Assembly (NCBI RefSeq): GCF_004761875.1
Contig: NZ_SJEY01000002.1
Coordinates: 310,001-374,000, forward strand
Length of the DNA stretch: 64,000 bases
Reading direction: 5' to 3'
Origin: Roseovarius aestuariivivens
GTDB taxonomy: Bacteria; Pseudomonadota; Alphaproteobacteria; Rhodobacterales; Rhodobacteraceae
Shown here: one piece after another, positions 51,321 through 64,000 of the stretch
Layout: the number at the start of each line of letters is the position of its first letter
Numbering within the stretch: the stretch's first letter is position 1
Position numbers and translations under genes: made by a program
The notes under the pieces: model-generated
Seen by the model: the letters and a program-made list of their open reading frames with translations, nothing else
Databases searched by the model: none
What the model was told of the DNA's origin: nothing

Positions 51321-51347
51321 AAAACGCTCGCCAATCGCGGGCGTTTT
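51321..51347. terminator. Bidirectional terminator between DUF2853 and the alcohol dehydrogenase
   Basis: Arms AAAACGCTCGC and GCGGGCGTTTT pair over 11 positions (one G-T pair) around a 5-nt loop. The A-run and U-run at the two ends suit termination in both directions. It starts 21 bp after the DUF2853 stop and overlaps the dehydrogenase stop codon. Confidence 0.8.
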
Positions 51348-52491
51348 ACATGGCCGATCGGAAAAGCAAGGCAAGGTTTTCCGGATTGAGCTGCACCGGA
51401 TTTCCGTTGCAGGAAGGATCCGAGAGCGCATCCTGAACGAGACCGGGGATCGCTGCTTCCGTAACGCCAAGATCGGCAAGGTGACGTGGAATGCCCAGAC
51501 TATCGTTAAGTGTCTGGACGAATTCGCAAAAGCCCTCAAACCCCCCTTTGATCCCGAGATAGTCGGAAACAGTCTCGAATTTCTTAGATATTGCGGGTGC
51601 GTTCAAAGCGAGAACGCTCGGCATGCAAACCGCGTTCGTAGTCCCGTGATGCGTTCCAAATCTTGCTCCGATCGGATGGCTCATCGCGTGAATAGCACCC
51701 AAGCCTTTCTGGAAAGCGGTGGCTCCCATGGCGGCCGCGCTCATCATGTGCGCGCGGGCTTCTAGATCGCTTCCATCTGCGAAGGCTCTGGGCAGGTACT
51801 CTTTGACCAATCGCATGCCCTCCAGGGCGATCCCTTGGCTCATGGGATGGTAATTCGGTGAGGAAAATGCTTCGACGCAATGTGCAAAAGCGTCCAGACC
51901 GGTGCCTGCCGTGATTGCGGGTGGCATTCCGATGGTCAATTCAGGATCGCAGATCACGATTGATGGCAAGATCTTCGGGTGAAAAATAATTTTTTTGCTG
52001 TGTGTTTTGGAGTTCGTGAGAACGGAGGCCCGTCCAACCTCGGACCCGGTGCCGGCGGTCGTCGGAACCGCGATAATCGGCGCAATCCGGTCGGCATTGG
52101 CACGGGTCCAGTAATCGCCGATATCCTCAAAATCCCAAACAGGCCGGGATTGACCCTGCATAAACGCCACCGTCTTTCCCAGATCGAGTCCGGAGCCGCC
52201 GCCCAGGGCCACCACACCATCGTGTCCACTGGCATGATAGGCCTCGATACCTGCCAAGAGGTTGAGCTCGTTCGGGTTAGGGTCGACATCAGAAAAACAG
52301 GCACGTCCAAGCCCGCCTGCTTCTAAGAGATTGAGAATCCTGCTGGTCAGAGGCAGGGCTGCTAAACCTCGGTCCGTCACAAGCAAAGGGCGCGATATCC
52401 CGATCGCATGACACGACTCGGCCAGTTCTGAGATTCGACCGGTGCCAAAGCGGATGTTTGTCGGGTAAGACCAGTTGCCAATCAAGGTCAT
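51346..52491 (-). CDS. Iron-containing alcohol dehydrogenase
   Basis: The 381-residue protein has the NAD loop VVALGGGSGLDLGKTVAF, GTGSEVGRASVLT, and metal-binding residues around DAFAHCVEAF, HAMSHPIGARFGTHHG. This group oxidises or reduces varied alcohols and aldehydes; the substrate is unknown. It starts at ATG 52491, after GGAAGGGAACC. It diverges from the glucosylglycerate phosphatase-like gene by 133 bp; a functional tie is possible but not shown. Confidence 0.9.
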   Translation of the reverse strand: MTLIGNWSYPTNIRFGTGRISELAESCHAIGISRPLLVTDRGLAALPLTSRILNLLEAGGLGRACFSDVDPNPNELNLLAGIEAYHASGHDGVVALGGGSGLDLGKTVAFMQGQSRPVWDFEDIGDYWTRANADRIAPIIAVPTTAGTGSEVGRASVLTNSKTHSKKIIFHPKILPSIVICDPELTIGMPPAITAGTGLDAFAHCVEAFSSPNYHPMSQGIALEGMRLVKEYLPRAFADGSDLEARAHMMSAAAMGATAFQKGLGAIHAMSHPIGARFGTHHGTTNAVCMPSVLALNAPAISKKFETVSDYLGIKGGFEGFCEFVQTLNDSLGIPRHLADLGVTEAAIPGLVQDALSDPSCNGNPVQLNPENLALLFRSAM

Positions 52492-52624
52492 AGGGTGGTT
52501 CCCTTCCATCACTCTGCTCTATCACCTGTGGCACGTTTGCCATCGCCGGGCAACGCACTCGCCCAATGTGGCAAGATCAATGATCACCCTCGCTCCGTGC
52601 AGGATGTTGGGCTAACCTACTGGT

Positions 52625-53395
52625 ATGACCGCCCCTCTTCCGCTTTTGGTTTTTTCTGATCTTGATGGCACTTTGCTGCGCCATGGTGATTACGCTTTCG
52701 AACCCGCCCGTCCAGCGCTTGACGCGCTTGTGGGAAAAAAAGGTGGCCTCATTCTTGCGACCAGCAAAACTGCAGCAGAAGTGGCGCCACTGCGCCGCGA
52801 CATTGGATTCGAGAACTGGCCTGCTATTGTTGAAAACGGCGGCGGTATTCTACCTGCGGGTGACGATACAGGGGATGTGCAGGGCACCTATGAGGATCTG
52901 AGATCCCGTTTGGCCGCTCTTCCCGCCGGATTTGTCGGGTTCGGCGATATGACAACCAGTGAGGTTGAGCAGGCAACCGGTTTGTCGCCGAGCGAAGCGG
53001 AAAATGCGCGGATCCGTTTATTCACTGAACCGGGCCTGTGGAAAGGCCACGAAAGTGATTTGCCCGCCTTTCTGCAGGCTGCCGAAAAAGCCGGTATTTT
53101 CGCAAGGCGAGGTGGTCGTTTTCTGACTTTATCGCTGGGCGGAACCAAAGCCGACCGCATGGATGAACTGATTTCAATGTACCGTCCTCGCCACACCGTA
53201 GCGCTAGGCGATGCGCCGAATGATGTTGAGATGCTGGAAAAAGCGGAGTTCGGCGTTATCGTGAAAAATGCAGCCGCGCCGCCGTTACCAGCTATGTCTG
53301 GCGAAGCGTCGGGTCGGATCAGGCGGACAAACCGCGAAGGTCCCGATGGATGGTCAGAAGCGATGCTCGCGCTTATGAACGAAATGAATTTGTAG
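52625..53395 (+). CDS. HAD phosphatase, glucosyl/mannosyl-3-phosphoglycerate phosphatase-like
   Basis: The 256-residue HAD enzyme has the nucleophile FSDLDGTLL near residue 10, SKTAAEV, and the lid and metal end VALGDAPNDVEML. The layout matches the MPGP family, which dephosphorylates mannosyl- or glucosyl-3-phosphoglycerate to the compatible solute. The sugar is not fixed by sequence. The next gene is a matching synthase, 16 bp downstream, supporting this role. Confidence 0.85.
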   Translation: MTAPLPLLVFSDLDGTLLRHGDYAFEPARPALDALVGKKGGLILATSKTAAEVAPLRRDIGFENWPAIVENGGGILPAGDDTGDVQGTYEDLRSRLAALPAGFVGFGDMTTSEVEQATGLSPSEAENARIRLFTEPGLWKGHESDLPAFLQAAEKAGIFARRGGRFLTLSLGGTKADRMDELISMYRPRHTVALGDAPNDVEMLEKAEFGVIVKNAAAPPLPAMSGEASGRIRRTNREGPDGWSEAMLALMNEMNL

Positions 53396-53411
53396 AAAGA
53401 TCCCGAAATCC

Positions 53412-54632
53412 ATGGCTGACTTCCACCAGAACGGCAATATCACGACGCTGCATAATTTGCGCACTCGGTCGCTCGAGGATTTGCAGTACGAGCTTGAAGG
53501 GTATTCAGCAAAGCGAAAAATAACCCTTATTTTGCCGTCGCTGTATTCCGAGCTTGAGGGTGCGGCGCTGGCACATATTCTGGACGAACTGTCCGCGGTC
53601 CCATACCTGCATCGCATCATAATTGGGCTTGATCAGGCGAATGAGAGTCAGTTCCGGCACGCGCAAAGCTATTTCTCCCGTTTGACGCAAAACCATATCG
53701 TGATCTGGAATGATAGCCCGCGGATGAAGGCTCTTGGCGCACGTCTAGAGGAGCTTGGGCTTGCTCCGAAAGAGGCCGGAAAAGGCAAGAACGTCTGGAC
53801 CTGTATCGGCTACCTGATTGCTTGCGAAGACAGTTCGGTCATGGCGATCCATGACTGCGATATCACAACCTACGACCGCCATATGCTCGCAAGGCTCGTC
53901 TATCCGGTCGTGAACCCGAACTTTCCCTATCAAATGGCGAAAGGTTACTATCCGCGTATTGATGGTCAAAAGCTGAACGGTCGGGTGACACGCCTTCTTG
54001 TCAGTCCTCTCCTGATTGCTCTGAAAAAGGTGATCGGCGATCGAGACTACCTCGATTACCTTCGTTCTTTCCGCTATCCTTTGTCCGGTGAATTCGCTTT
54101 GCGTGTGCCTATTCTGCCTGATCTGCGGATACCTTCCGATTGGGGTCTTGAGATTGGCGTTCTCTCGGAGGCGTGGCGAAATCTTGCTCCTCAATCCGTT
54201 TGCCAGGTGGAGATTGCAGATGCGTATGACCACAAGCACCAAGATCTTTCGCCCCAAGATGCTTCGAAAGGCCTAAGCCGGATGTCGACGGATATCTGCA
54301 AGGCGATCTTCCGCAAACTTGCGTCCGATGGCACGATATTCACTCCCAACATGTTCCGGACGCTTAAAGCGACCTACTACAGGCAAGCTTTGGACATCCT
54401 AGAGAGCTACTACAATGATGCCAAAATGAACGGGCTCGCCGTTGATCGGCATAAAGAAGAAAAGGCAGTCGAGCTTTTTGCCGAGAATATCATCCGGGCC
54501 GGTAACACGTTTCTCGAAAACCCAAACGAAAGCCCCTTCATCCCGACGTGGAACCGTGTTCACGCTGCGGATCCCAGCTTCTTGAGCGACTTCAAAAAGG
54601 CCGCAGCCCTCGACGCGGAAGAGTTCACGTGA
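53412..54632 (+). CDS. Glucosyl-3-phosphoglycerate synthase-like glycosyltransferase
   Basis: This 406-residue GT-A glycosyltransferase has SLYSELEGAALAHILDEL, a donor loop GKGKNVWTCIGYLI and a metal-binding AIHDCDITTYDRHML. The closest known type I can name from memory is the GpgS found in Persephonella and marine bacteria, which makes glucosyl-3-phosphoglycerate from NDP-glucose and 3-phosphoglycerate. The preceding phosphatase and the converging phosphorylase fit. Mannosyl transfer cannot be excluded. The stop directly meets that of the phosphorylase. Confidence 0.8.
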   Translation: MADFHQNGNITTLHNLRTRSLEDLQYELEGYSAKRKITLILPSLYSELEGAALAHILDELSAVPYLHRIIIGLDQANESQFRHAQSYFSRLTQNHIVIWNDSPRMKALGARLEELGLAPKEAGKGKNVWTCIGYLIACEDSSVMAIHDCDITTYDRHMLARLVYPVVNPNFPYQMAKGYYPRIDGQKLNGRVTRLLVSPLLIALKKVIGDRDYLDYLRSFRYPLSGEFALRVPILPDLRIPSDWGLEIGVLSEAWRNLAPQSVCQVEIADAYDHKHQDLSPQDASKGLSRMSTDICKAIFRKLASDGTIFTPNMFRTLKATYYRQALDILESYYNDAKMNGLAVDRHKEEKAVELFAENIIRAGNTFLENPNESPFIPTWNRVHAADPSFLSDFKKAAALDAEEFT

Positions 54633-56381
54633 TCAAGCGCGATTGCTTATCCACCGGCATTGGTATGGGGCAAAGGCGATCTCTGGACCCGCAGCAACGA
54701 TCTCTTCGCCGTTTAGAAGATCGATCCATGTATCGCCTTCGATCAAGTTAATCGCAGAGGCGCTGACCGGAACGGTTTCGTCGCTGACGTTGTGAATGGC
54801 AAAGATCGACTGATTTCGGTCAAGGCTTTGGCGCCAGATCCCGAAAAGCCTTTCATCGAGCCTGAGCGTGAACTGCGTGGCATTCGGATGAAATCCCGGC
54901 TGTTTTCCTCGAATGCGCAGCCTGCGTGATAATTCCTTGATAACGCGAGACTGATCGCTTTCCGGATCGGCAAGCTTCTCCTGAAGCGCGGGATAATCCC
55001 AACGGTGCCGATTGATGGCCCGATTCATACCCCGGCGCTCGACTGCATCGTGGTCGCTTGGCGTTGCTAGAAGCGCGTGGATATAGAAAGCTGGAATGCC
55101 TTCGAGAGACATGACAATCGTCTGAGAGCAGAAGAACCGGTCGAAATGATGGGCGTCTTCGCCCTTGAACGTGCGTCTCAGCGCATCGAAAAGCGAGCAG
55201 TTGAGCTCGTAAGGTTCTTCTTTTCCGTCCTTCAGCGCTCGCATCGACACGAGACCACCGGCCGCGCGAACGGTATCGATCATTTGGGCTTTTTCTTCGG
55301 GTGGTAATAGGCCCTCGGCGGGTCGCATACCGATACCATCATGGCTTGCCGTGAAGTTGAGGTATGCGCACCCCATCTGGGCAGGCGGCATTGTCGATTG
55401 CCATTTGTGCAAATAGCGAGCTGTTCCAGATTGTACAGCATGCACGATCAGCGGTGGCAGGGGAAAGTTGTAGACCGCATGAGCCTCGTTGCGATTGCCG
55501 AAATAGCTTAGATTCTCAAGGCTCGGTACGTTCGTTTCGGTCAATAGCACAACCGTCTCGACTGCATAATCGCACAAAAGGCGCAGCAATTGTACGATCG
55601 CATGTGTCTGCGGCAGATGAATGCATGTCGTGCCCGGCTCTTTCCAGATGAACGCGACGGCATCGAGGCGTAAGATGCGCACACCTTGGTCGATGTGCAT
55701 CCGGATGATACGCAACATTTCGAGAAGGACTTCGGGATTGGTGAAATCGAGATCGATCTGGTCGTGGCTGAACGTGCACCAGACATGTTTCTCGCCCTGT
55801 TTTGTCTCTATCTTCTGAAGCAATGGCGTAGTTCGTGGGCGCACGACATCTGACAGATCCTGCTTCGGCTGAGCTTCGTAAAAGAACCGGTCGTAAGGGG
55901 GTTTGCCGAGGCGGTAGTCGTTGAACCAGTGGCTTTGGCTCGAGACATGATTGAGAACAAGATCCGACATAAGATGGAAGCGTGATGCGATGCGTCGGAT
56001 GTCGCTCCAGTCTCCGAGAGACGGATTGACCGCGCGATAGTCCGTTACGGCGAACCCGTCATCGGAACTGAAAGGAAAGAACGGTAAGATATGTACGCCA
56101 CTTATGATGCCGCTCATATGCTCCGTAAGGAAGTGCTCGAGCAAATCTAAAGGTTTGTGGCTGCCATCTATGATCGAATTGCCGTAAGTGATCAAAACCG
56201 CATCGCGCTCGGACCACAAATTGTTGCTGGGCGACCTGGCGCGTCGGCGGCGATGGTGTTCCTCGGGCCAAAAAGCATCAATGATCTGACCGGACAGAAT
56301 GTCTTTGTCTACGTCCGGATAAATTTGACCAAGTAATTCGCTTAAGCGTGCGTTGAAGAGATTGGTTGTCTTGGCCAGCAC
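54633..56381 (-). CDS. GH13 glycoside phosphorylase, glucosylglycerate phosphorylase-like
   Basis: This 582-residue (beta/alpha)8 enzyme has the GH13 residues in their usual order: nucleophile Asp240 in RILRLDAVAFIWKE, acid/base Glu282 in LLTETNVPSLENLSYFG, and Asp348 in TASHDGIGMRP. Sequence context is that of subfamily 18, which holds sucrose phosphorylase and glucosylglycerate phosphorylase. Facing the synthase and phosphatase, the second is more likely: glucosylglycerate plus phosphate to glucose-1-phosphate and glycerate. The start is GTG with AGGGAG 10 bp upstream. Specificity is inferred. Confidence 0.8.
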   Translation of the reverse strand: MLAKTTNLFNARLSELLGQIYPDVDKDILSGQIIDAFWPEEHHRRRRARSPSNNLWSERDAVLITYGNSIIDGSHKPLDLLEHFLTEHMSGIISGVHILPFFPFSSDDGFAVTDYRAVNPSLGDWSDIRRIASRFHLMSDLVLNHVSSQSHWFNDYRLGKPPYDRFFYEAQPKQDLSDVVRPRTTPLLQKIETKQGEKHVWCTFSHDQIDLDFTNPEVLLEMLRIIRMHIDQGVRILRLDAVAFIWKEPGTTCIHLPQTHAIVQLLRLLCDYAVETVVLLTETNVPSLENLSYFGNRNEAHAVYNFPLPPLIVHAVQSGTARYLHKWQSTMPPAQMGCAYLNFTASHDGIGMRPAEGLLPPEEKAQMIDTVRAAGGLVSMRALKDGKEEPYELNCSLFDALRRTFKGEDAHHFDRFFCSQTIVMSLEGIPAFYIHALLATPSDHDAVERRGMNRAINRHRWDYPALQEKLADPESDQSRVIKELSRRLRIRGKQPGFHPNATQFTLRLDERLFGIWRQSLDRNQSIFAIHNVSDETVPVSASAINLIEGDTWIDLLNGEEIVAAGPEIAFAPYQCRWISNRA

Positions 56382-56618: not shown

Positions 56619-57671
56619 CTATGAGGATGACTCGCTCTGACGATGCGGCGCATTTTCATTTTCCTGGAGATCGTCTTGCAAGGAGAGATCCGAAGCATGA
56701 TCCTCTTTCAGCCCCCCGGTAAGTATTTCGTCCATGGTAGGGCCGAGATTGTCGGCTTTCGAGGCGCCGCGCTCGCCCATCGGTCTATCTGCTCCGATGG
56801 TACTGTCTATCTCGGTTTGTGCTTCAAGCTCGGCATCAAGCTGTGCACCGAGCAGAATTATAAAAGCCGAGAGCCACATCCACGTAAGCAGGATGATGAC
56901 GCCACCCAGCGCGCCAAAAGTCTCATTATAAGAGCCAAAGCGTTGAACATAGAGACTGAATCCAACGCTTCCGGCGACCCAAAGAAGGCATGCGAGTACC
57001 GCCCCCGGAGTCAGCCAGCGCCATTTGGCAGGTCGCCGATTTGGTGCATAGCGATATAGCATCCCGATCCCAAACGCGCCCATGGCAAACATCAGTGGCC
57101 AGCGAATGATCAAGAGACCGTCCAGCAACCAACCTCGTGCTCCGAATAAGGCCGCCAAGGCAGGTATCGCGGCTACGACAAGGATGCAGAACAAGACGCC
57201 GACAATGAGTGCCAGTGTAAGAAACAGGGTCAAAGCGCGCAGCTTGAAAAAGCCTCGCGTTTCGACCTCTCCGTAGATGATATTCAGCCCGGCAATGAAG
57301 TTTCCGACAGCCCGTGACGCGGAATAAAGCGCAAGAGCAAGCGCCGCCAAGGCTGCGACACTCAATGTATTCTGGTCAGAGCTTACGACGTCGTCGAGTT
57401 GGCCCATGACGATATCTCGCGCAGCATCAGGCATGAAAGAGGCCAACAATTCGGAAGCGGACAACAGCATGTCATCGGGCATCATGAGACCGGCCAATGC
57501 TACCGCGGCGGTTATTCCGGGGAAAATCGACAAAAGCCCATAAAACGCAATGCCGGCAGCCAACAACCCGACATTGAGGCGCATTATATGCCGCACGAGC
57601 CTGAACCCGACATCCAACAGGCCGACCAAGGGAATTTGTCCGGGGCTTTGGGCGGCTCTTCCCCGACTCAT
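56619..57671 (-). CDS. YihY/BrkB-family inner-membrane protein
   Basis: This 350-residue protein has six helices and the family start LNVGLLAAGIAFYGLLSIFPGITAAVALAG in segments, plus SRAVGNFIAGLNIIYGEVETRGF in segments. A charged tail of about 60 residues ends it. The function of the family is not known. It diverges from the Rho-N protein. I found no EcfG element on its own side of the gap. Confidence 0.87.
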   Translation of the reverse strand: MSRGRAAQSPGQIPLVGLLDVGFRLVRHIMRLNVGLLAAGIAFYGLLSIFPGITAAVALAGLMMPDDMLLSASELLASFMPDAARDIVMGQLDDVVSSDQNTLSVAALAALALALYSASRAVGNFIAGLNIIYGEVETRGFFKLRALTLFLTLALIVGVLFCILVVAAIPALAALFGARGWLLDGLLIIRWPLMFAMGAFGIGMLYRYAPNRRPAKWRWLTPGAVLACLLWVAGSVGFSLYVQRFGSYNETFGALGGVIILLTWMWLSAFIILLGAQLDAELEAQTEIDSTIGADRPMGERGASKADNLGPTMDEILTGGLKEDHASDLSLQDDLQENENAPHRQSESSS

Positions 57672-57783
57672 GAAGCAACCTTAGCTGACTTTGGCATGCC
57701 GTTCTGTCCCTTCGTCTGCTCATTTATGCAGCGTATCGTATGAGAAACATAATTCAGCCTGACGCAAAGCACACCCCGCCACG

Positions 57784-57810
57784 GGAACTGTCTTGGATAT
57801 TACGGCGTTT
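57784..57810 (+). promoter_or_regulatory. EcfG-type stress promoter, GGAAC-N17-CGTTT
   Basis: GGAAC at 57784-57788 and CGTTT at 57806-57810, 17 bp apart, match the consensus for EcfG-type general-stress sigma factors. It lies 50 bp upstream of the Rho-N protein start. Confidence 0.8.
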
Positions 57811-57860
57811 CAGCACCTGAAATTCTGACAACTGCCCTTGCAGGGAATGGAGTTTGCGCC

Positions 57861-58121
57861 GTGACGAAAGACCATGGACCGTCCATCAAGGACGATGAGA
57901 CATACAAAGCACTTCGAGACCAAGGTTACGACAAATCGAAAGCCGCGGCGATTGCGAATGCGAAAGCCAACGATGACATGAACCCGTCACGAAAAGGCGG
58001 CAAATCCAGTCCGTATGAAAAGTGGACGGTAGTCGAACTGCGCGAGCGCGCCCGAGAGCTTGAAATCGAAGGCCGCTCAACCATGACCAAGGATGAGCTG
58101 ATTTCGGCCCTTAGGGACTGA
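57861..58121 (+). CDS. Small Rho-N domain protein
   Basis: The 86-residue basic protein has a first half resembling DUF7218-type stress peptides (MTKDHGPSIKDDETYKALRDQG in segments, SKAAAIANA) and a Rho-N-like SAP fold at the C-terminus (KWTVVELRERARELEIEGRSTMTKDELISAL in segments). Such proteins are often members of general-stress regulons; the activity is unknown. The start is GTG with GGAG upstream. It is driven by the EcfG-type element and followed 66 bp later by the PLDc_N gene. Confidence 0.85.
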   Translation: MTKDHGPSIKDDETYKALRDQGYDKSKAAAIANAKANDDMNPSRKGGKSSPYEKWTVVELRERARELEIEGRSTMTKDELISALRD

Positions 58122-58126
58122 AGCCG

Positions 58127-58152
58127 GGAACCAAAGCGCGAAGAAGGCGTTT
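58127..58152 (+). promoter_or_regulatory. EcfG-type stress promoter, GGAAC-N16-CGTTT
   Basis: GGAAC at 58127-58131 and CGTTT at 58148-58152, 16 bp apart. It lies 35 bp upstream of the PLDc_N gene and would also serve topoisomerase IB behind it. Confidence 0.8.
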
Positions 58153-58187
58153 GGTCTCTATCACACAAGAATACGAGGATTCTACTA

Positions 58188-58382
58188 ATGGGAATCGAAA
58201 TTGCAGGTCTGGGAGGCCTAATTCTCCTTGGATTGGCTATCTATGCGATCGTCAACATCATCGGGTCCAGCGCCGGAACCGGCGCTAAGGTTCTTTGGAC
58301 GCTACTTGTTCTGGTTTTGCCTTTAATCGGCTTTATTCTGTGGCTTATCGCAGGCCCAAGATCGGCGCGAGGCATGGCCTGA
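58188..58382 (+). CDS. PLDc_N-type small membrane protein
   Basis: This 64-residue protein has two hydrophobic segments (LGGLILLGLAIYAIVNIIG and ALWTLLVLVLPLIGFILWLIAGP, allowing for the Lys-Val lead-in) and ends SARGMA. It is the stand-alone form of the phospholipase-D N-terminal membrane domain; the role is not known. EcfG-type control is indicated. Topoisomerase IB begins 12 bp later. Confidence 0.82.
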   Translation: MGIEIAGLGGLILLGLAIYAIVNIIGSSAGTGAKVLWTLLVLVLPLIGFILWLIAGPRSARGMA

Positions 58383-58394
58383 GACGCCGTTGGC

Positions 58395-59408
58395 ATGGCG
58401 TTGGTCTATTATCCCGACTCAAACCCCGGAATCGCACGCCGAAAGTGCGGCCGGGGTTTTTCGTATCTTGCCTCCGATGGCAGTCTCATCGACTGTAAAG
58501 TGGAAAGAAAACGGCTCAAGTCGATGGCTGTTCCACCGGCCTATGTTGATGTGTGGATGACGCCCCTATTAAACGGACACTTACAGGCCACGGGTCGGGA
58601 TGCGCGCGGCCGGAAACAGTACCTATATCATCCAGATTGGCATGCCCGCCGTCGTGAGACGAAATTCGATCGTTTGAAAGAAGTCGGGGAGGCGTTGCCG
58701 TCTCTACGCCGTTGGATCGCGGATCGGCTCTCCGGCGAGATCGGCGCGCGTGATACAGCCGTAGCCGCGGTCCTAGCCCTTATCGATAGAGCAGCTCTAC
58801 GTCCAGGCAACGCGGCGTATACGCATAGAAATGGCAGCTATGGGGCAATGACTCTCCGCCCGGATCACCTCTTTATTCGGGAGAACTCTATTGGTTTGAA
58901 ATATACAGCTAAAGGCGGAGACATGATTGAAAAAAGCCTGCAAGGCGCAAGACTTGCCCGCGTACTGGAAGAGTCTTGCGACCTTCCAGGGCCCGAAGTT
59001 TTCACATATTTTGGCCATGACGAAGAGCCTTATGCCATCCGTTCGGAGCATTTGTCGGACGCGCTTTCAAAAGTCTGCGGCGACGAAGTAACGCCTAAGG
59101 CTTTGCGTACTTGGTCAGGCACTCACGCGGCTTTTCTGGCCGCGCTCAATTCGGTTGATGAACTCCGTATCTCGGACATGGCGACAGCGGCGGCGGAAAG
59201 GCTGCACAACACACCTTCCATCGCGAGAAATAGCTACGTGCACCCCGAAGTTATCAAATTGGCTGATCTGGACGCCGGGAAAAGAAAGAAGCGCCTAGCC
59301 AGATTGTCGGACAACGGCGCCAGTGAGATGCGGAAGGGCGAGGCGGCTTTGCTGGATTTCTTAAATGAAGAAACCCCTGCCGGGGAGGATGCAGGGGTTT
59401 CTTCGTGA
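58395..59408 (+). CDS. Type IB DNA topoisomerase
   Basis: The 337-residue enzyme relaxes DNA through a 3'-phosphotyrosine link. It has the poxvirus-like bacterial layout: GRKQYLYHPDWHARR, ALIDRAALRPGNAAY, the catalytic core with LRTWSGTHAAF, and the likely nucleophile Tyr in TPSIARNSYVHPEVI. Bacterial TopIB genes are mostly accessory and stress-linked. It is the second gene of a unit read from an EcfG-type promoter. A strong hairpin covers its last codons. Confidence 0.92.
   Translation: MALVYYPDSNPGIARRKCGRGFSYLASDGSLIDCKVERKRLKSMAVPPAYVDVWMTPLLNGHLQATGRDARGRKQYLYHPDWHARRRETKFDRLKEVGEALPSLRRWIADRLSGEIGARDTAVAAVLALIDRAALRPGNAAYTHRNGSYGAMTLRPDHLFIRENSIGLKYTAKGGDMIEKSLQGARLARVLEESCDLPGPEVFTYFGHDEEPYAIRSEHLSDALSKVCGDEVTPKALRTWSGTHAAFLAALNSVDELRISDMATAAAERLHNTPSIARNSYVHPEVIKLADLDAGKRKKRLARLSDNGASEMRKGEAALLDFLNEETPAGEDAGVSS
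59367..59404 (+). terminator. Hairpin terminator inside the end of topoisomerase IB
   Basis: GAAGAAACCCCTGC and GCAGGGGTTTCTTC form a perfect 14-bp stem with a 10-nt loop, ending two bases before the stop codon. The right arm ends in a U-rich GUUUCUUC. The repeat also encodes the C-terminal tail, so this terminator lies within coding sequence. Confidence 0.75.
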
Positions 59409-59577
59409 CAGTTTACTGACCGTCACGTGGGACGAAATAGAAACGCCGGGTCTGAGAGCTGGTTCCACCAAAATGCAACTTTTTTAGCTTTCGTTGAGGT
59501 GCCGTCGCGCTATCTCAAGCGCGAAGTGGCAAGGTATCGGCAACGGGCTTAACTTGCCGAAGAAACGGAATGGGTAC

Positions 59578-60423
59578 ATGGACGGAAAATCTGACGCGGA
59601 ACTTGTCGAAAAAAGTCACGAAAACAGGACAGTTCGCAGGCTAACATCGGTTTCCGGGCGTCTGATCTTCGAGGCAATCCGTCGCGAGGGTAATGAAGAG
59701 CTTAATCGCACACTCGGAGCCCTTTGGTGGTCCGGTATAGCAGCCGGGCTGCTGATTGCTTTCTCCGTCTGGGGTGAAGCGCTTCTTAGGTCGAGTCTTC
59801 CCGACACCGAATGGCGCTATATTCTTGAAAACTTTGGTTATTCTCTTGGGTTCCTGCTTGTCATTCTGGGTCGCATGCAGCTTTTTACAGAGAATACGAT
59901 TACAACGGTTGTTCCTTTGGTAATGAGACCGGCCTTCTCTTGCTTGTGGAAAGTGGCACGTCTTTGGGGGGTCGTTCTAGCAGCCAATATTGTGGGTGCG
60001 TTTGCAGTCGCAAGCTTTATGGCCTTTACGCCGGTTCTCAGCGACGAGGTGCGTTTGGCTGTCACAGAATTAAGCCATCACGCTACCGGAATGCCGGCGA
60101 TCGAAGGCATGGTTCGCGGTATTCCCGCAGGCGTTTTGATTGCAGCTCTCGTCTGGATGATGCCTGCGGCGGGCTCCAGCCGACTAATGCTGATTATCGT
60201 GTTCACGTGGCTGATCGCGTTAGGCGATTTTACCCACATTATTGCGGGATCGGTGGAGATGGCCTTTCTGCTTGTTCAGGGAGAACTTCAAGCGATGCGT
60301 GCTATCTTCGGCTTCTTCCTGCCGGTACTCGTTGGAAACATCGTGGGCGGCACGGTCGTATTCACACTGCTGACAAGCGCTCAGATCAAATATGATATCG
60401 AAGAAAACGGAGCCAAGAGTTAA
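59578..60423 (+). CDS. Formate/nitrite transporter (FNT) family protein
   Basis: This 281-residue protein has six membrane helices after a charged N-terminus. It resembles the YfdC-like branch: LLIAFSVWGEALLRSSL, GRMQLFTENTITTVVPLV, WGVVLAANIVGAFAVAS, and LVGNIVGGTVVFTLL. FNT channels move small monovalent anions; the ion here is not known. The only suitable start is ATG 59578, with no strong ribosome site. Confidence 0.85.
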   Translation: MDGKSDAELVEKSHENRTVRRLTSVSGRLIFEAIRREGNEELNRTLGALWWSGIAAGLLIAFSVWGEALLRSSLPDTEWRYILENFGYSLGFLLVILGRMQLFTENTITTVVPLVMRPAFSCLWKVARLWGVVLAANIVGAFAVASFMAFTPVLSDEVRLAVTELSHHATGMPAIEGMVRGIPAGVLIAALVWMMPAAGSSRLMLIIVFTWLIALGDFTHIIAGSVEMAFLLVQGELQAMRAIFGFFLPVLVGNIVGGTVVFTLLTSAQIKYDIEENGAKS

Positions 60424-60427
60424 TGGA

Positions 60428-60449
60428 CCCGCGCAGCACGCTGCGCGGG
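60428..60449. terminator. Hairpin between convergent FNT gene and small TM gene
   Basis: CCCGCGCAG and CTGCGCGGG pair perfectly around 4 nt, starting 4 bp after the FNT stop. There is no U-run. It may serve both converging transcripts. Confidence 0.5.
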
Positions 60450-60536
60450 CCAACTCGCAAAGGCTTTGTGATTTGCACGAGACTGTTAAAGGGTTTGGTC
60501 TGGTTGGCTTGCATCCTCTGGCCAAGAAAGAGACGC

Positions 60537-60725
60537 TTATTCGCTTTGAGTTTCGTTGACGACAGGTTCGACGTCGCCGGCGACGGGCACTTTTCCACCC
60601 AGCGACATATAAACGATCAACGCCAATACGATGACTGCACCGATGATCGCAAAAAGAACACCGCCGCTAAGCATGGGCTTATGTTTCTTCTCTTGCTTCT
60701 CGACATTTGTGTTAGGTGCGGACAT
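60537..60725 (-). CDS. Small single-TM protein
   Basis: This 62-residue protein has a charged N-terminus (MSAPNTNVEKQEKKHKP), one membrane helix (GGVLFAIIGAVIVLALIVYM) and an acidic tail. I recognise no function. The ATG has AAAGGAG about 6 bp upstream, and an EcfG-type element lies 28-53 bp before it on the same strand, which supports it as a real stress-regulated gene. Confidence 0.8.
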   Translation of the reverse strand: MSAPNTNVEKQEKKHKPMLSGGVLFAIIGAVIVLALIVYMSLGGKVPVAGDVEPVVNETQSE

Positions 60726-60752
60726 TTCACACTCCTTTCAGTATTAATAAAC

Positions 60753-60778
60753 AAACGTGGTGCGCGAAAAACAGTTCC
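60753..60778 (-). promoter_or_regulatory. EcfG-type stress promoter, GGAAC-N16-CGTTT (minus strand)
   Basis: Read on the minus strand, GGAAC at 60778-60774 and CGTTT at 60757-60753 are 16 bp apart. It points at the 62-residue TM protein. It overlaps the 3' end region of the Crp/Fnr gene. Confidence 0.78.
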
Positions 60779-60779
60779 A

Positions 60780-61508
60780 TCACATTAACGGGCGGACGAT
60801 CGGTACGGATGTATCAATTGAGGCCAGCTCTCCAAGCTTATGACGGTCATAAATCGTGAGATTTCCATCTTTCCACAGCAGAACACCTTCTTCTCTTAGC
60901 CGGCCAAGTGTCTTGTTTGTATGAACGAGTGACAGGCCAAGCGCGTCCGCGAGATCCTGTTGCTTGTAAGGAAAAGGACACGTGTCATTTTTCAAGAGGT
61001 CGAGTGCGGCAGAGCGAGTGAAGATCTGGCACAGCGCCCAGGCGACCTTTTCCAGCGCGCTTTTTTGGCCGATCGTGGCAAGGGCGTCTCCTAGGAAGTG
61101 CTCTTCCACCGCTGCCAGGTGCGTTAAAGCGTAAGCGCGGTCTGGCAAGGATCGGAAAAGCGACCAGATGTCGGCGCGATTAAAGACGCAAAGGGTCATG
61201 GACGTCGTTGCCTCCACAGAATGGCCCATCTCGCCCATGATTCCGGCCTGAAGACCTATGAAGTCGCCCGGGAACACGAAATTAATGACCTGCCTTTCAC
61301 CATTTTCGAGACTTTTGTAGCGAAGGCCCATGCCGCTCAGTACCGTAAAAAGCTGTGGTGATTTCGAAGCCTGAACTAGCAAATGGGTGCCCGGCTGTAC
61401 CTCCATCTGTCCGGTCTTGAACCGGTTCATGAAGTCAATTTCCTCTTTTTTGAAAGGCTCGAAGGCGGAAAGCTGCCGTAAAGGACAATCCTTGCAGTTG
61501 ATGGTCAT
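60780..61508 (-). CDS. Crp/Fnr-family transcription regulator
   Basis: The 242-residue regulator has a cyclic-nucleotide-binding-like beta barrel (about residues 20-130, with NFVFPGDFIGLQAGIMGEMGH in segments) and a C-terminal helix-turn-helix (YKQQDLADALGLSLVHTNKTLGRLREEGVL in segments). It starts TINCKDCPLRQL: only two N-terminal cysteines, so it lacks the full cysteine set of oxygen-sensing Fnr. The signal is unknown. It diverges from the receiver-like gene. The small TM gene follows downstream after 54 bp. Confidence 0.88.
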   Translation of the reverse strand: MTINCKDCPLRQLSAFEPFKKEEIDFMNRFKTGQMEVQPGTHLLVQASKSPQLFTVLSGMGLRYKSLENGERQVINFVFPGDFIGLQAGIMGEMGHSVEATTSMTLCVFNRADIWSLFRSLPDRAYALTHLAAVEEHFLGDALATIGQKSALEKVAWALCQIFTRSAALDLLKNDTCPFPYKQQDLADALGLSLVHTNKTLGRLREEGVLLWKDGNLTIYDRHKLGELASIDTSVPIVRPLM

Positions 61509-61604
61509 TTTTTCGCTTACCTATGTCACAGATTATTGCAGGACACCTGAACAATCTCCACGTTGCCGCCACGAAGCATCAGATGGAGCAGGCACGTAGT
61601 CTTT

Positions 61605-61940
61605 ATGTCCAAAAATTGTCTTATTGTTACGACCAATGTGGTCGAAGCAGTGGATTTGAGTGATCTTGTTTCTGAAGAGTATGGCATGATCGCTCATGCG
61701 TTTCGTGATGCGACGACTGCTTTGGCTGGCATCGCTGGAATTGTGTCGGTTGACCTGGCGTTTGTCTCGGCCGACTTCGAGGCACATGACATGGCCGATC
61801 TCGTGCAGGACGTTTTGGGCCGAGGCGCCAATGTCATCCTCATCAACGGTTTGGCTGCGGAGAACCAAGGACCGGTTGGTTTTCTTCAACGTCCCTATTC
61901 CTCGGATGACATCGGTCGCATCGTTAGCGCTTTCGTCTGA
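61605..61940 (+). CDS. Receiver-like protein lacking phosphorylation residues
   Basis: This 111-residue protein has an alpha/beta pattern like a response-regulator receiver: CLIVTTN for strand 1, VDLAFVSADF for strand 3, NVILINGLA for strand 4, FLQRPYSSDDIGRIV for strand 5 and helix 5. The acidic pair, the phospho-Asp and the conserved Lys are replaced (TTN, S-A-D-F, Arg-Pro). So it is probably a pseudo-receiver with a protein-binding role. The start at 61605 is inferred; no strong ribosome site is seen. It is divergent from the Crp/Fnr regulator. Confidence 0.65.
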   Translation: MSKNCLIVTTNVVEAVDLSDLVSEEYGMIAHAFRDATTALAGIAGIVSVDLAFVSADFEAHDMADLVQDVLGRGANVILINGLAAENQGPVGFLQRPYSSDDIGRIVSAFV

Positions 61941-62045
61941 TTGCATCACCGCCACAGTTCAACTCTGTCGAGAGTATAGTCTAGGTCTGCATGCTCAAGA
62001 AGTGTTCCGTGGTGGTTATTTAGCCGCGAAACCGGAGCGCTATGC

Positions 62046-62071
62046 GGAACGAATCCTGTGACCACTCGTTT
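62046..62071 (+). promoter_or_regulatory. EcfG-type stress promoter, GGAAC-N16-CGTTT
   Basis: GGAAC at 62046-62050 and CGTTT at 62067-62071, 16 bp apart, 36 bp before the DUF1328 gene. Confidence 0.8.
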
Positions 62072-62107
62072 TCATGGTTAGAAACGGGAAAACGAGAGGA
62101 TTTTGAT

Positions 62108-62278
62108 ATGTTGAACTGGTCATTGATTTTCTTAGTGGTCGCCATCGTCGCCGGCGTTTTCGGGTTCGGAGGCGTTGCTTCTGCTTCGGCGGACATCGCC
62201 CAAGTCCTTTTCGTACTTTTCCTCGTGCTATTCGTTGTGGCGATGATCGTCAGGTTTCTTAAGGGGCGAACGCACTGA
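62108..62278 (+). CDS. DUF1328/UPF0391 small membrane protein
   Basis: This 56-residue protein starts [22 protein letters not shown] in segments and has two hydrophobic helices (the second is [21 protein letters not shown]), the signature of DUF1328. These peptides are widespread and often stress-induced; function unknown. The ATG at 62108 follows a purine-rich GAGAGG. It has an EcfG-type promoter and is followed by a strong intrinsic terminator. Confidence 0.88.
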
Positions 62279-62304
62279 CAGAAAAGATTTCTAACCCTCC
62301 CAGT

Positions 62305-62338
62305 GCGGCGCAGCTTCATTGCGCCGCTCTTCTTTTTT
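62305..62338 (+). terminator. Rho-independent terminator after DUF1328 gene
   Basis: GCGGCGCA and TGCGCCGC form an 8-bp stem with a 7-nt loop, followed by a T-rich run to 62338. It lies 27 bp after the stop codon and isolates the gene from gdhA. Confidence 0.85.
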
Positions 62339-62355
62339 GAAGTTAAGGACTATGC

Positions 62356-63696
62356 ATGGACAGACGTGACGTCCTGACAAACGCTTTCGTTGATGAATTG
62401 GGATCGCATACTCGATCTCAGAACAATTTCATCCAGGCGGTCAGACACGTAGCGCGAGACGTTCTGACGATCGAAAAGAACGACCCCGCCTTATCCAACG
62501 CCAAGGTTTTGCATAGGCTCGCAGAGCCGGACCGCATTCTTTCATTTCGCGTTACCTGGGAAAGCGATACGGGCGGGGTCAATATAAATCGCGGCTGGCG
62601 CGTTCAGACTTCGAATGTCATCGGCCCGTACAAAGGTGGTCTGCGGTTTCACCCGACAGTGAGCGTTGATATCTTGAAGTTCTTGGGCTTTGAGCAGTGT
62701 TTCAAAAACGCTCTTACCGGTTTGCCGCTGGGAGGCGCAAAAGGTGGTTCGGATTTCGATCCGCGAGGTCGGACTGAGCGCGAGATCATGAGGTTTTGCC
62801 AGGCCTTCATGCGTGAACTGGCACCGCATATAGGGCCAGATCGCGATGTTCCTGCTGGGGATATCAACGTCGGGCCACGCGAAATCGGCTATATGTTTGG
62901 GGCATGGAGGAAATTTGCCGGGCAGTACGATGGCGCACTCACGGGCAAGGGACTGTCCTACGGCGGATCTCAAATGCGGGTCGAAGCAACGGGCTACAGC
63001 TTAGTTTACTTCATTCAAGCCATGCTGGAACAAAACGGCCGCGACTTGGCTGGTAAGCGGGTCGCAATTTCTGGCAAGGGCAATGTTGCGACTCACGCTG
63101 CACTGAAGGCGCAGGAAGCAGGCGCCAAAGTCATTACACTTTCTGATACATCTGGAACACTTTATGCGGCCGACGGTATGTCGCGAGATTTGATTTGCTG
63201 GGTGCAGCAGCGGAAAGACGCTGGAGAAGACATCAGCGCACCAAAGGAAAAAGGCGCTTCCTTCGAATCGAATGCCGTTCCGTGGAGTTTTGAACCTGAA
63301 ATCGCGCTTCCCTGCGCAACTCAGAATGAGTTGACGCAAATAATGGCAAAGGACTTGGTGGACTCCGGCACCGAGATCGTGGCCGAAGGCGCGAATATGC
63401 CACTTACAGATGATGCGCTTGAGGTATTGAATGCCTCAGATGTTGTCCATGCGCCAGGTAAGGCTGCCAATGCTGGTGGTGTTGCGGTCAGCGGACTTGA
63501 GATGAGCCAGAACAGTTATCGTCGCTCCATGTCAGCACAAGAGGTAGACAATGCGCTTGTCGGTCTCATGAAGGAGATCCACGCTCGTGTGGCCGAGGAA
63601 GGAACGCAAGACGGTCGAATTGACTATGCCCGAGGTGCAAATATCGCAGGGTATCGTCGCCTTGCCCAAGCAATCCAAGCTCAGGGTGTTTTGTGA
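62356..63696 (+). CDS. gdhA: NADP-type glutamate dehydrogenase
   Basis: The 446-residue hexameric enzyme makes glutamate from 2-oxoglutarate and ammonia. It has GGLRFHPTVSVDILKFLGFEQ in segments, the lysine motif LPLGGAKGGSDFDPRG, DVPAGDINVGPREIGYMFG and the Rossmann GKGNVATHAALKAQEAGA. The length fits the NADP-dependent bacterial group; cofactor preference is inferred from family. The start is ATG 62356 with AAGGAC upstream. No EcfG element precedes it. A 15-bp inverted repeat follows. Confidence 0.95.
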   Translation: MDRRDVLTNAFVDELGSHTRSQNNFIQAVRHVARDVLTIEKNDPALSNAKVLHRLAEPDRILSFRVTWESDTGGVNINRGWRVQTSNVIGPYKGGLRFHPTVSVDILKFLGFEQCFKNALTGLPLGGAKGGSDFDPRGRTEREIMRFCQAFMRELAPHIGPDRDVPAGDINVGPREIGYMFGAWRKFAGQYDGALTGKGLSYGGSQMRVEATGYSLVYFIQAMLEQNGRDLAGKRVAISGKGNVATHAALKAQEAGAKVITLSDTSGTLYAADGMSRDLICWVQQRKDAGEDISAPKEKGASFESNAVPWSFEPEIALPCATQNELTQIMAKDLVDSGTEIVAEGANMPLTDDALEVLNASDVVHAPGKAANAGGVAVSGLEMSQNSYRRSMSAQEVDNALVGLMKEIHARVAEEGTQDGRIDYARGANIAGYRRLAQAIQAQGVL

Positions 63697-63698
63697 AC

Positions 63699-63733
63699 GG
63701 CGCCAGTTCCGCTAATGAAGCGGAACTGGCGCC
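63699..63733. terminator. Bidirectional terminator between gdhA and phyR
   Basis: GGCGCCAGTTCCGCT and AGCGGAACTGGCGCC form a perfect 15-bp stem with a 5-nt loop. It starts 3 bp after the gdhA stop and ends 13 bp before the phyR stop. An A/U-rich stretch follows on the gdhA side. Confidence 0.75.
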
Positions 63734-63745
63734 GAAAAATGTTGT

Positions 63746-64000
63746 TTAGCCGATAAGAGTCTCGGTAGACGCAAAGAACATCGCTTGGCTGACAGCGGAG
63801 CGAACTTGCTCTTCAGAGTAGGGTTTCGAGATCAAGAAGGCAGGCTCGGGGCCCTCTCCTGTCAAAAGCCTTTCAGGAAACGCCGTAATGAATATTACGG
63901 GCCGATCGCCGTGCAACTTAAGGATCTGGTTGACGGCATCGATGCCGCTGGAGCTATCGGCAAGTTGGATATCTGAAAGAATGAGATCTGGAATTTCCTT
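63746..64000 (-). CDS. phyR: General stress response regulator PhyR, C-terminal part only
   Basis: The visible 84 codons are the end of a receiver domain: PDLILSDIQLADSSSGIDAV with the phospho-Asp, RPVIFITAFPERLLTGEG, and FLISKPYSEEQVRSAVSQ with the conserved Lys, then a short tail ETLIG. FITAFPERLLTGE is diagnostic of PhyR, the anti-anti-sigma factor whose receiver releases NepR from EcfG. The sigma-like N-terminal half would lie beyond the right edge, where nepR and ecfG are commonly found. The start and promoter cannot be seen. Confidence 0.92.
   Translation of the reverse strand, partial: KEIPDLILSDIQLADSSSGIDAVNQILKLHGDRPVIFITAFPERLLTGEGPEPAFLISKPYSEEQVRSAVSQAMFFASTETLIG

Follow-up and report, generated by a model that had tools for sequence, protein, structure and literature searches.

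The window analysed here is a 64,000-nucleotide stretch of the Roseovarius aestuariivivens genome (3.94 Mb, labelled G000 in the comparisons; contig NZ_SJEY01000002.1, positions 310,001 to 374,000), whose right end holds a row of small genes and, at the border, the 3′ part of phyR. PhyR belongs to the PhyR-NepR-EcfG pathway, in which stress leads to phosphorylation of PhyR, phosphorylated PhyR binds NepR, and the sigma factor EcfG is freed for its targets (PMC5830050, PMC6599016; these two papers, PMC5869019 and PMC12148442 are cited from the part of their text that was available). The end of phyR at the right border, recognized in an earlier note on this DNA, was confirmed by the PhyR_sigma2 domain and by the NCBIfam PhyR model NF006623 (344.5 bits, cut-off 240). 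The protein contains sigma-like and receiver domains (PF22029, PF22233 and PF00072), and D196, which we take to be the phospho-acceptor aspartate, is invariant in 10 of 10 aligned PhyR sequences. The genes nepR and ecfG, which the same note proposed to look for past the right edge, are both located there together with a gene for a HisKA_2 kinase. NepR matches PF18557 (53.2 bits, cut-off 25.7) and its frame overlaps ecfG; EcfG, which adjoins nepR, matches NF009198 (316.2 bits, cut-off 270), a model named only "RNA polymerase sigma factor"; and the kinase matches PF07568 (E 9e-24) without reaching the PhyK equivalog model (188.5 bits against 750). The top named PhyR relatives among the matches listed are those of Antarctobacter heliothermus (72%) and Leisingera aquaemixtae (71%). 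The comparisons described below make it very likely that this region is a compact stress-response block, in which PhyR-NepR-EcfG stands beside its own putative EcfG targets and which was probably gained or lost as a unit.

Four GGAAC-N16/17-CGTTT elements had been reported before small genes encoding Rho-N, PLDc_N together with topoisomerase IB, a one-transmembrane (one-TM) peptide and DUF1328. All four are present, at 57784, 58127, 60754 (minus strand) and 62046, and each continues with an extra T after GGAAC-N16/17-CGTT; the minus-strand element is real, and its position is 60754-60778 rather than the 60753 given earlier. Pfam agrees with the four gene assignments, the Rho_N gene also carrying DUF7218. 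The small genes do follow the elements; the spacing, previously put at 28-53 bp, was measured between the last base of the -10 element and the start codon (57861, 58188, 60725 on the minus strand, and 62108) as 51, 36, 28 and 37 bp. Shuffled sequence would give 1.3 copies of the exact pattern GGAAC-N16/17-CGTT in the window, which has seven; for the whole genome, the same words at spacers of 10-15 predict 45.3, and 51 are present. Seven of these 51 genome matches fall within 6,837 bp (57784-64620), where 0.079 would be expected (Poisson P 3e-12, for a stretch chosen post hoc). An equal density of the motif elsewhere had been named as the finding that would tell against the proposal; in the genome scan it was not seen, the genome-wide density being 0.013 per kb, near the chance estimate of 0.0115, and that in the cluster about 1 per kb. 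In the phyR loci compared below, counts at spacers 10-15 run slightly below those at spacers 18-26, so that the excesses given here are slightly overstated. A reversed-pattern control was dropped (90 against 51 matches in this genome, 42 against 115 in genome G047); it varies strongly among genomes, and wrong-spacer counts were therefore used instead.

Five of the seven exact matches precede a gene on the same strand, namely those for DUF7218/Rho_N, PLDc_N, the one-TM peptide, DUF1328 and phyR itself. The remaining two, at 58510-58534 (-) and 59442-59466 (-), were absent from the earlier list. The former lies inside the topoisomerase IB gene (topIB), scores 11.2 with the scoring matrix (built from 134 of 139 gene-linked sites in relatives, the five of this genome being excluded) and faces no gene; it is probably a chance match. 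The latter is discussed below. Among the gene-linked sites, the one at 57784 has the lowest matrix score (10.3).

The significance of these elements becomes clearer when the 20-kb regions around phyR are compared in 40 genomes of the family. These are 40 of the 42 genomes top-ranked by PhyR similarity (G246 and G156 were skipped), and not a random draw from the 111 other phyR-containing family genomes. In these loci the pattern occurs 107 times with N16 and 78 times with N17, and every other spacer from 8 to 26 yields 0-13 occurrences. A further 74 named loci among the matches listed (80 minus six duplicates, some closely related to one another) give 159 and 89 occurrences, respectively; at the other spacers the mean is 10.9 and the highest count 20. 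With this genome included, 139 of 192 right-spacer sites lie between genes and have a gene start no more than 300 bp downstream (median 36 bp, quartiles 32-51), the gene starts being those of a gene caller trained on these loci; the same holds for only 13 of 97 wrong-spacer sites (P 2e-22). In the 2 kb next to phyR there are 0.44-0.61 sites per kb, falling unevenly to 0.06-0.09 at 8-10 kb (on one side, 0.15 per kb at 2-4 kb and 0.35 at 4-6 kb). Because the enrichment near phyR appears only at the right spacing, and because the sites precede genes, they look like true EcfG promoters.

The comparison also supports the earlier proposal, made from the sites in the window, that the genes form one regulon, since all four small-gene families carry the exact site in other genomes. 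Counted over 41 loci (this one included, with one representative scanned for each of the larger families lacking a name), the site precedes DUF1328 in 14 of 31 members, PLDc_N in 11 of 20, DUF7218/Rho_N in 4 of 6 and the one-TM peptide in 4 of 4, as well as the regulators phyR (19/41) and nepR (19/33). Further families with the site are DUF883-like (11/17), ferritin-like (Dps-like; 10/12), CsbD (4/6), a 42-aa peptide (4/5), amidoligase (4/10), PRC-barrel (3/7), AI-2E (3/10), Hva1_TUDOR (2/5) and MscS (2/3); several of these are familiar general-stress kinds. It is rare before the FNT transporter (1/12) and glutamate dehydrogenase (1/8). Gene order and strand are reshuffled among phyR loci, and the shared sites are therefore not merely copied neighbourhoods. 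The features of the region are listed in Table 1.

Table 1. Genes and predicted elements of the block and its right flank, in window coordinates; positions above 64,000 lie past the window edge. For promoter elements, the distance is that to the start codon.
Feature	Position	Strand	Remarks
Fe-dependent alcohol dehydrogenase	51346-52512	-	NCBIfam naming below cut-off
Mannosyl-3-phosphoglycerate-phosphatase-like HAD protein	52625-53395	+	NCBIfam naming below cut-off
Glucosyl-3-phosphoglycerate-synthase-like glycosyltransferase	53412-54632	+	NCBIfam naming below cut-off
GH13 sucrose-phosphorylase-like protein	54633-56381	-	NCBIfam naming below cut-off
BrkB family membrane protein	56619-57671	-	PF03631 E 8e-60; matched in 11/40 phyR loci
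EcfG-type promoter, N17	57784-57809	+	Exact core; 51 bp 5′ of DUF7218/Rho_N gene
DUF7218 + Rho_N small protein, 86 aa	57861-58121	+	PF23855 E 1e-21; PF07498 E 2e-8
EcfG-type promoter, N16	58127-58151	+	Exact; 36 bp 5′ of PLDc_N gene; matrix 23.5, highest in the block
PLDc_N small membrane protein, 64 aa	58188-58382	+	PF13396 E 1e-10
Topoisomerase IB (topIB), 337 aa	58395-59408	+	PF21338, PF01028; PDB 2f4q E 5e-33
Predicted small RNA, two stem-loops	59363-59435	-	Antisense overlap with topIB 3′ end
EcfG-type promoter, N16, facing predicted small RNA	59442-59466	-	Exact; matrix 20.4
Formate/nitrite transporter (FNT) family protein	59578-60423	+	PF01226 E 1e-47; matched in 11/40 phyR loci
One-TM peptide, 62 aa	60537-60725	-	Transgly_assoc match only sub-threshold (Pfam)
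EcfG-type promoter, N16	60754-60778	-	Exact; 28 bp 5′ of one-TM gene; matrix 17.4
Crp/FNR-type regulator	60780-61508	-	PF00027, PF13545; FnrL model 78 bits vs cut-off 300
111-aa protein without Pfam match	61605-61940	+	Matched in 1/40 phyR loci
EcfG-type promoter, N16	62046-62070	+	Exact; 37 bp 5′ of DUF1328; matrix 16.8
DUF1328 small membrane protein, 56 aa	62108-62278	+	PF07043 E 4e-16; matched in 29/40 phyR loci
NADP-specific glutamate dehydrogenase	62356-63696	+	NF006929 607.6 bits, cut-off 536
phyR	63746-64558	-	Cut by the window at 64000; 3′ end inside
Near-exact nepR-side site (AGTT)	64589-64613	+	Past edge; overlaps phyR site
EcfG-type exact core of phyR	64595-64620	-	Past edge; 36 bp 5′ of phyR; followed by G, not T
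nepR	64647 or 64656 to 64835	+	Past edge
ecfG	64816-65373	+	Past edge
HisKA_2 kinase	65370-67118	+	Past edge
tRNA-Thr(CGT)	67285-67360	-	Past edge
hemY	from 67407	-	Past edge

The genes under discussion lie in a block of about 16 kb (51346-67284) between a DUF2853 gene and tRNA-Thr, which encloses the stress cluster and, in its left part (51346-56381), a group of genes that is perhaps a cluster for synthesis and breakdown of the solute glucosylglycerate. The phyR-lacking congener G299 has ahcY, then two genes, then DUF2853, tRNA-Thr and hemY, and the gap between DUF2853 and the tRNA is 50 bp, that is, an exact empty site. Another phyR-lacking congener, G254, has kept hemY, tRNA-Thr, DUF2853 and ahcY, with two genes between the tRNA and DUF2853, an isocitrate-dehydrogenase-like gene (named by eye) and a smaller one. 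The simplest reading of the pair formed by this genome and G299, with its one empty site, is that the block was probably gained or lost as a unit. The hemY site was read in 13 selected congeners (eight without and five with phyR), of which G268 extends only 0.7 kb beyond hemY. tRNA-Thr follows hemY in 7 of the 13, and in the other 11 congeners than G299 and G254 DUF2853 was not found in the DNA compared beside hemY (one of them with the 0.7 kb only). The stretch beyond tRNA-Thr is variable in the genus. In congener G250 (L200 near 1560-1900), a truncated second tRNA-Thr-like stretch was seen by eye beside the full gene, which is perhaps the scar of an earlier insertion.

The same arrangement could also be explained by ordinary clustering, as some EcfG targets lie near phyR in Alphaproteobacteria. 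The locus would then be one more such case, neither mobile nor self-contained, and local rearrangement or loss would account for its tRNA edge and for the empty site. This alternative is a serious one, and we lean against it only a little. It accords with the wide differences in the DNA beside hemY among the 13 congeners and with the enrichment of the pattern, again at the right spacing only, at 19 phyR loci from other families of the class (19 of 21 other phyR-containing genomes). In the latter, N16 occurs 33 times and N17 19 times, against 0-5 for spacers 10-15 and 18-25, so that 52 sites in 353 kb give 0.147 per kb compared with 0.23 within the family. Ordinary clustering would also suit the several genomes of the family that hold most of their excess sites elsewhere. 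A genome-wide count of exact sites in this genome and the 20 nearest to it in PhyR similarity gave a total excess of 337 at the right spacers; 104 sites lay in the 20-kb phyR regions, which make up about 0.5% of each genome (a small part of these 104 is due to chance, and the chance expectation is slightly underestimated). The excess outside the cluster is present in 14 of the 21 genomes and is zero or below in the other 7; the spread is wide, G047 having an excess of 53 sites outside and no local sites. This genome is among the seven, with seven local sites and an outside estimate of -1.3 ± 8, an error that about 15 exact sites elsewhere would still fit; it stands at the compact end of the range among the 21 genomes. 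Against mere clustering stand the 50-bp gap in G299 in place of the 16 kb with the block here and the patchy presence of phyR even within the genus (34 of 60 genomes).

A number of observations weigh against a stress block that comes and goes as a unit. The exact empty site was found in only 1 of the 13 congeners read at hemY. The closest phyR-containing congener, G278, has a smaller cluster elsewhere and no topIB, and the block is therefore not a fixed unit. No integrase was found among the 18 block proteins scanned (two of the 18 have no Pfam match), and no attachment-site (att) repeat, as no direct word longer than 9 bp is shared by 67261-67365 and 40000-67200. The G+C content of the block (0.527-0.542) resembles that of the DNA directly beside it (0.537 and 0.549), a higher value (0.579) being seen only in the far left core, and G+C was consequently dropped as an island sign. 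Judged as a genomic island, the block thus has the adjacent tRNA and the empty site, and has neither repeats nor an integrase nor a distinct composition. The promoters raise doubts of their own: the score of 10.3 for the 57784 site is within the chance range (29 sites above 10 in 59.9 kb of core DNA), exact and matrix scans revealed no site directly 5′ of the BrkB, FNT, Crp/FNR, 61605 and glutamate dehydrogenase genes, and the matrix scan found no strong EcfG-type site before the genes of the solute cluster. EcfG control of the solute cluster and of the BrkB, FNT, Crp/FNR and glutamate dehydrogenase genes was dropped for want of a good site before them in the matrix scan. In the comparison of topIB genes described next, 19 of 46 have no exact site within 1.5 kb upstream (for at least two of the 19, the upstream DNA is shorter than 450 bp), and among the 29 sites found before the others there are some so distant that they may serve another gene. 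Finally, a phyR mutant of Rhodobacter sphaeroides was unimpaired in oxidative, heat and osmotic stress and affected in membrane stress, according to the available part of PMC5830050; "general" stress is therefore perhaps too wide a word for this family.

The distribution of topIB ties this gene closely to the pathway. Among 248 family genomes, PF21338 occurs in 46, one per genus; all 46 belong to the 112 genomes that have phyR, and the 136 that lack it have no case (P 2e-19, kinship ignored). The one control family used, Photo_RC, chosen for its patchy occurrence, is unlinked (46 with and 54 without phyR; P 0.90). The same pattern is found inside the genus, where the 10 genomes with topIB out of 60 are all among the 34 with phyR (P 0.0017). 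For 8 of the 46 topIB genes, the distance to phyR is below 10 kb. An exact forward site is present no more than 1.5 kb upstream of 27 of the 46, and the upstream regions hold 29 sites at the two right spacers against 4 at 17 wrong spacers. In 40 separately fetched topIB loci, 38 of which are more than 10 kb from phyR or on another contig, the exact site stands within 450 bp before 19 genes, compared with 339 of 8000 random one-strand windows from the same loci. It is conceivable that topIB and phyR co-occur through shared subclade ancestry only, the enzyme having no stress role. The co-occurrence tests do ignore kinship, and topIB also occurs outside the class, in Pseudomonas aeruginosa (PMC2666729, available part) and Deinococcus. 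The lack of a single phyR-negative case in 248 genomes, the pattern within the genus, the sites before distant topIB genes and the EcfG dependence of topIB measured in Sphingomonas (PMC6599016) render this explanation improbable. That dependence is seen in Table 1 of the latter paper, where topoisomerase IB is listed among the top EcfG-dependent genes of Sphingomonas melonis.

The related genomes thus suggest that topIB belongs to the stress response. R136, K173, R238, N272 and Y281, presumably the catalytic residues Arg-Lys-Arg-(His/Asn)-Tyr, are conserved in all 41 aligned sequences (41 of the 46, those with stops or not longer than 200 aa being omitted), and the likeness to the Deinococcus radiodurans enzyme is a sequence match of 2f4q to query residues 21-287. 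The fold of topoisomerase IB is related to that of tyrosine recombinases; topIB was considered for this reason as the recombinase of the block itself and dropped, with no supporting evidence. DUF7218 shows a similar distribution, occurring in 40 of the 112 phyR-containing family genomes and in 1 of the 136 others, the exception (G181) being 86% complete. The pathway, and EcfG control of topIB in one species, were already known; the block, the tight link between topIB and phyR, and the predicted RNA described below are new. No mention of the confinement of topIB to phyR-containing genomes was found in the literature searched, as far as its available text goes (PMC5830050, PMC6599016, PMC5869019 and PMC12148442 included). 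To our knowledge, bacterial topoisomerase IB has no well-settled role in physiology, and its tight link to one stress pathway across a family makes that role testable in laboratory strains.

GGAAC-type -35 elements are common to extracytoplasmic function (ECF) sigma factors and not specific to EcfG, but use of the sites by another such factor is very unlikely, given that their density peaks at phyR-nepR-ecfG itself with both divergent promoters included, that two target families are confined or nearly so to phyR-containing genomes, and that the consensus agrees with the S. melonis EcfG motif GGAAC-N17-20-GTT (PMC6599016).

A feasible model for the block may be as follows. As in the known pathway, stress would lead to phosphorylation of PhyR, the adjacent HisKA_2 kinase being the probable source of the phosphate, and phosphorylated PhyR would bind NepR and draw it off EcfG. 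Free EcfG would then transcribe phyR, nepR-ecfG, the DUF7218/Rho_N gene, PLDc_N-topIB (the two genes likely share one operon), the one-TM peptide gene and DUF1328 via GGAAC-N16/17-CGTT. Its output perhaps includes the glutamate dehydrogenase gene, for which read-through from the DUF1328 promoter is our guess, and probably a short RNA of two hairpins. As to the products, it may be guessed that the small transmembrane proteins protect the membrane, and that topoisomerase IB and the Rho_N protein protect DNA. In this model, the sites with their spacing and positions, the gene families, the co-occurrence and the empty site were computed here, the steps of the pathway are inferred, and the roles of the products are guesses.

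The site at 59442-59466 (-), exact and third in the block by matrix score, is not followed by a called gene on its strand within 300 bp and lies 4.3 kb from the end of phyR. Directly beyond it, the 73 nt from 59435 to 59363 fold into two adjacent stem-loops (minimum free energy -36.6 kcal/mol, z -7.9), the second of which carries the C-rich loop AUCCUCCCCG and is followed by AUUU, a poor U-tract. EcfG would probably drive a short two-hairpin RNA here, as judged from promoter and predicted fold. The second hairpin coincides with the final codons of topIB, for which it may act as terminator on the opposite strand; taken alone, it is therefore weak evidence for the RNA. Rfam gave no small-RNA match at the gathering score, and the identities 6C (32.4 bits, gathering 47), BSnc120 and ar14 were rejected, all being sub-threshold; a blastn comparison of the loci gave no convincing match. 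Such a site beyond topIB is present in 2 of the 46 topIB loci, the other being that of G173 (L063:13128-13260, +), in which an EcfG-type site past the topIB 3′ end points back and is followed by a terminator-like hairpin with a sequence unlike that found here. The predicted RNA resembles GsrN, the sigma-EcfG-dependent small RNA, in its EcfG-type promoter, in a position near the core regulators (as in most genomes for GsrN) and in a C-rich loop; unlike GsrN, to which it has no sequence match, it carries this loop in the second hairpin (PMC5869019). GsrN-like RNAs are named in Caulobacteraceae and Rhizobiales, and the word Rhodobacter is absent from the available main text of that paper. The present RNA is thus a candidate for an EcfG-driven small RNA in a group where that text names no such RNA.

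The locus shares with the PhyR-NepR-EcfG systems of other Alphaproteobacteria (Methylobacterium, Sphingomonas and Caulobacter) the regulators, their order (phyR / nepR-ecfG-kinase) and the promoter consensus. Dps and CsbD are also general-stress target kinds of Alphaproteobacteria. Topoisomerase IB and PRC-barrel are shared target kinds as well (PMC6599016 Table 1). It differs from these systems in that the sites crowd around the regulators, inside a block for which one relative shows the empty site, and in that no excess of exact sites is measurable elsewhere in the genome. The phyR locus of R. sphaeroides (RSP_1271-1274) has the same core order and a Crp-Fnr gene near phyR, and the role of its PhyR in membrane stress fits the target list here, rich in small membrane proteins; no EcfG target promoters are described in the available part of that study, relative to which topIB, DUF7218, PLDc_N, the one-TM peptide and DUF1328, with their sites, are additions (PMC5830050). 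The EcfG-dependent genes of S. melonis Fr1 include those for topoisomerase IB, for a Crp-like protein and for a pair of glycosyltransferase and glycosidase, and the link between presence of topIB and of phyR drawn here is not described in the text available (PMC6599016). A HWE/HisKA2 kinase feeds the PhyR pathway in the kinase network of Rubellimicrobium thermophilum, as proposed here; that study treats the signalling proteins in isolation, with a blue-light LOV protein as the kinase, and the words regulon and topoisomerase are absent from its main text (PMC12148442). R. thermophilum belongs to the same family as the host of the block.

It is also tempting to speculate, tentatively and with more doubt than confidence, that Rhodobacteraceae pass around a self-contained stress cassette of switch, promoters, effectors and small RNA, joined here to a solute cluster at tRNA-Thr, in which the whole measurable regulon would arrive with its regulator and topIB would be its dedicated effector, retained only where the switch is present. 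With the regulon packed against its regulator and the empty site known from a relative, the locus lends itself to studying how a general stress response is gained or lost in nature, and the common promoter predicts when the small proteins of no known function are made.

Some features of phyR loci deserve separate mention. Exact sites on opposite strands, offset by 6-8 bp, are paired in 39 of 114 loci (15 of the 40 and 24 of the 74 named ones), 33 of the 39 pairs by 7 bp; each -35 element thereby stands beside the -10 element of its partner, and the near-exact counterpart in this genome is at 64589-64620. The 15 pairs of the 40 loci, for which position was read, adjoin phyR on its nepR side. 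In such overlapping divergent promoters, the two directions would compete for polymerase. A Crp/FNR-type gene like that at 60780-61508 lies near phyR in 20 of the 40 loci, with an exact EcfG-type site in none of the 20 family members; this regulator could couple the stress response to oxygen or to redox state. The amidoligase gene, present in 10 phyR loci, is followed (L064:3089-5896) by the gene of a 238-aa family that occurs in 8 loci and by eye resembles a glutamine amidotransferase.

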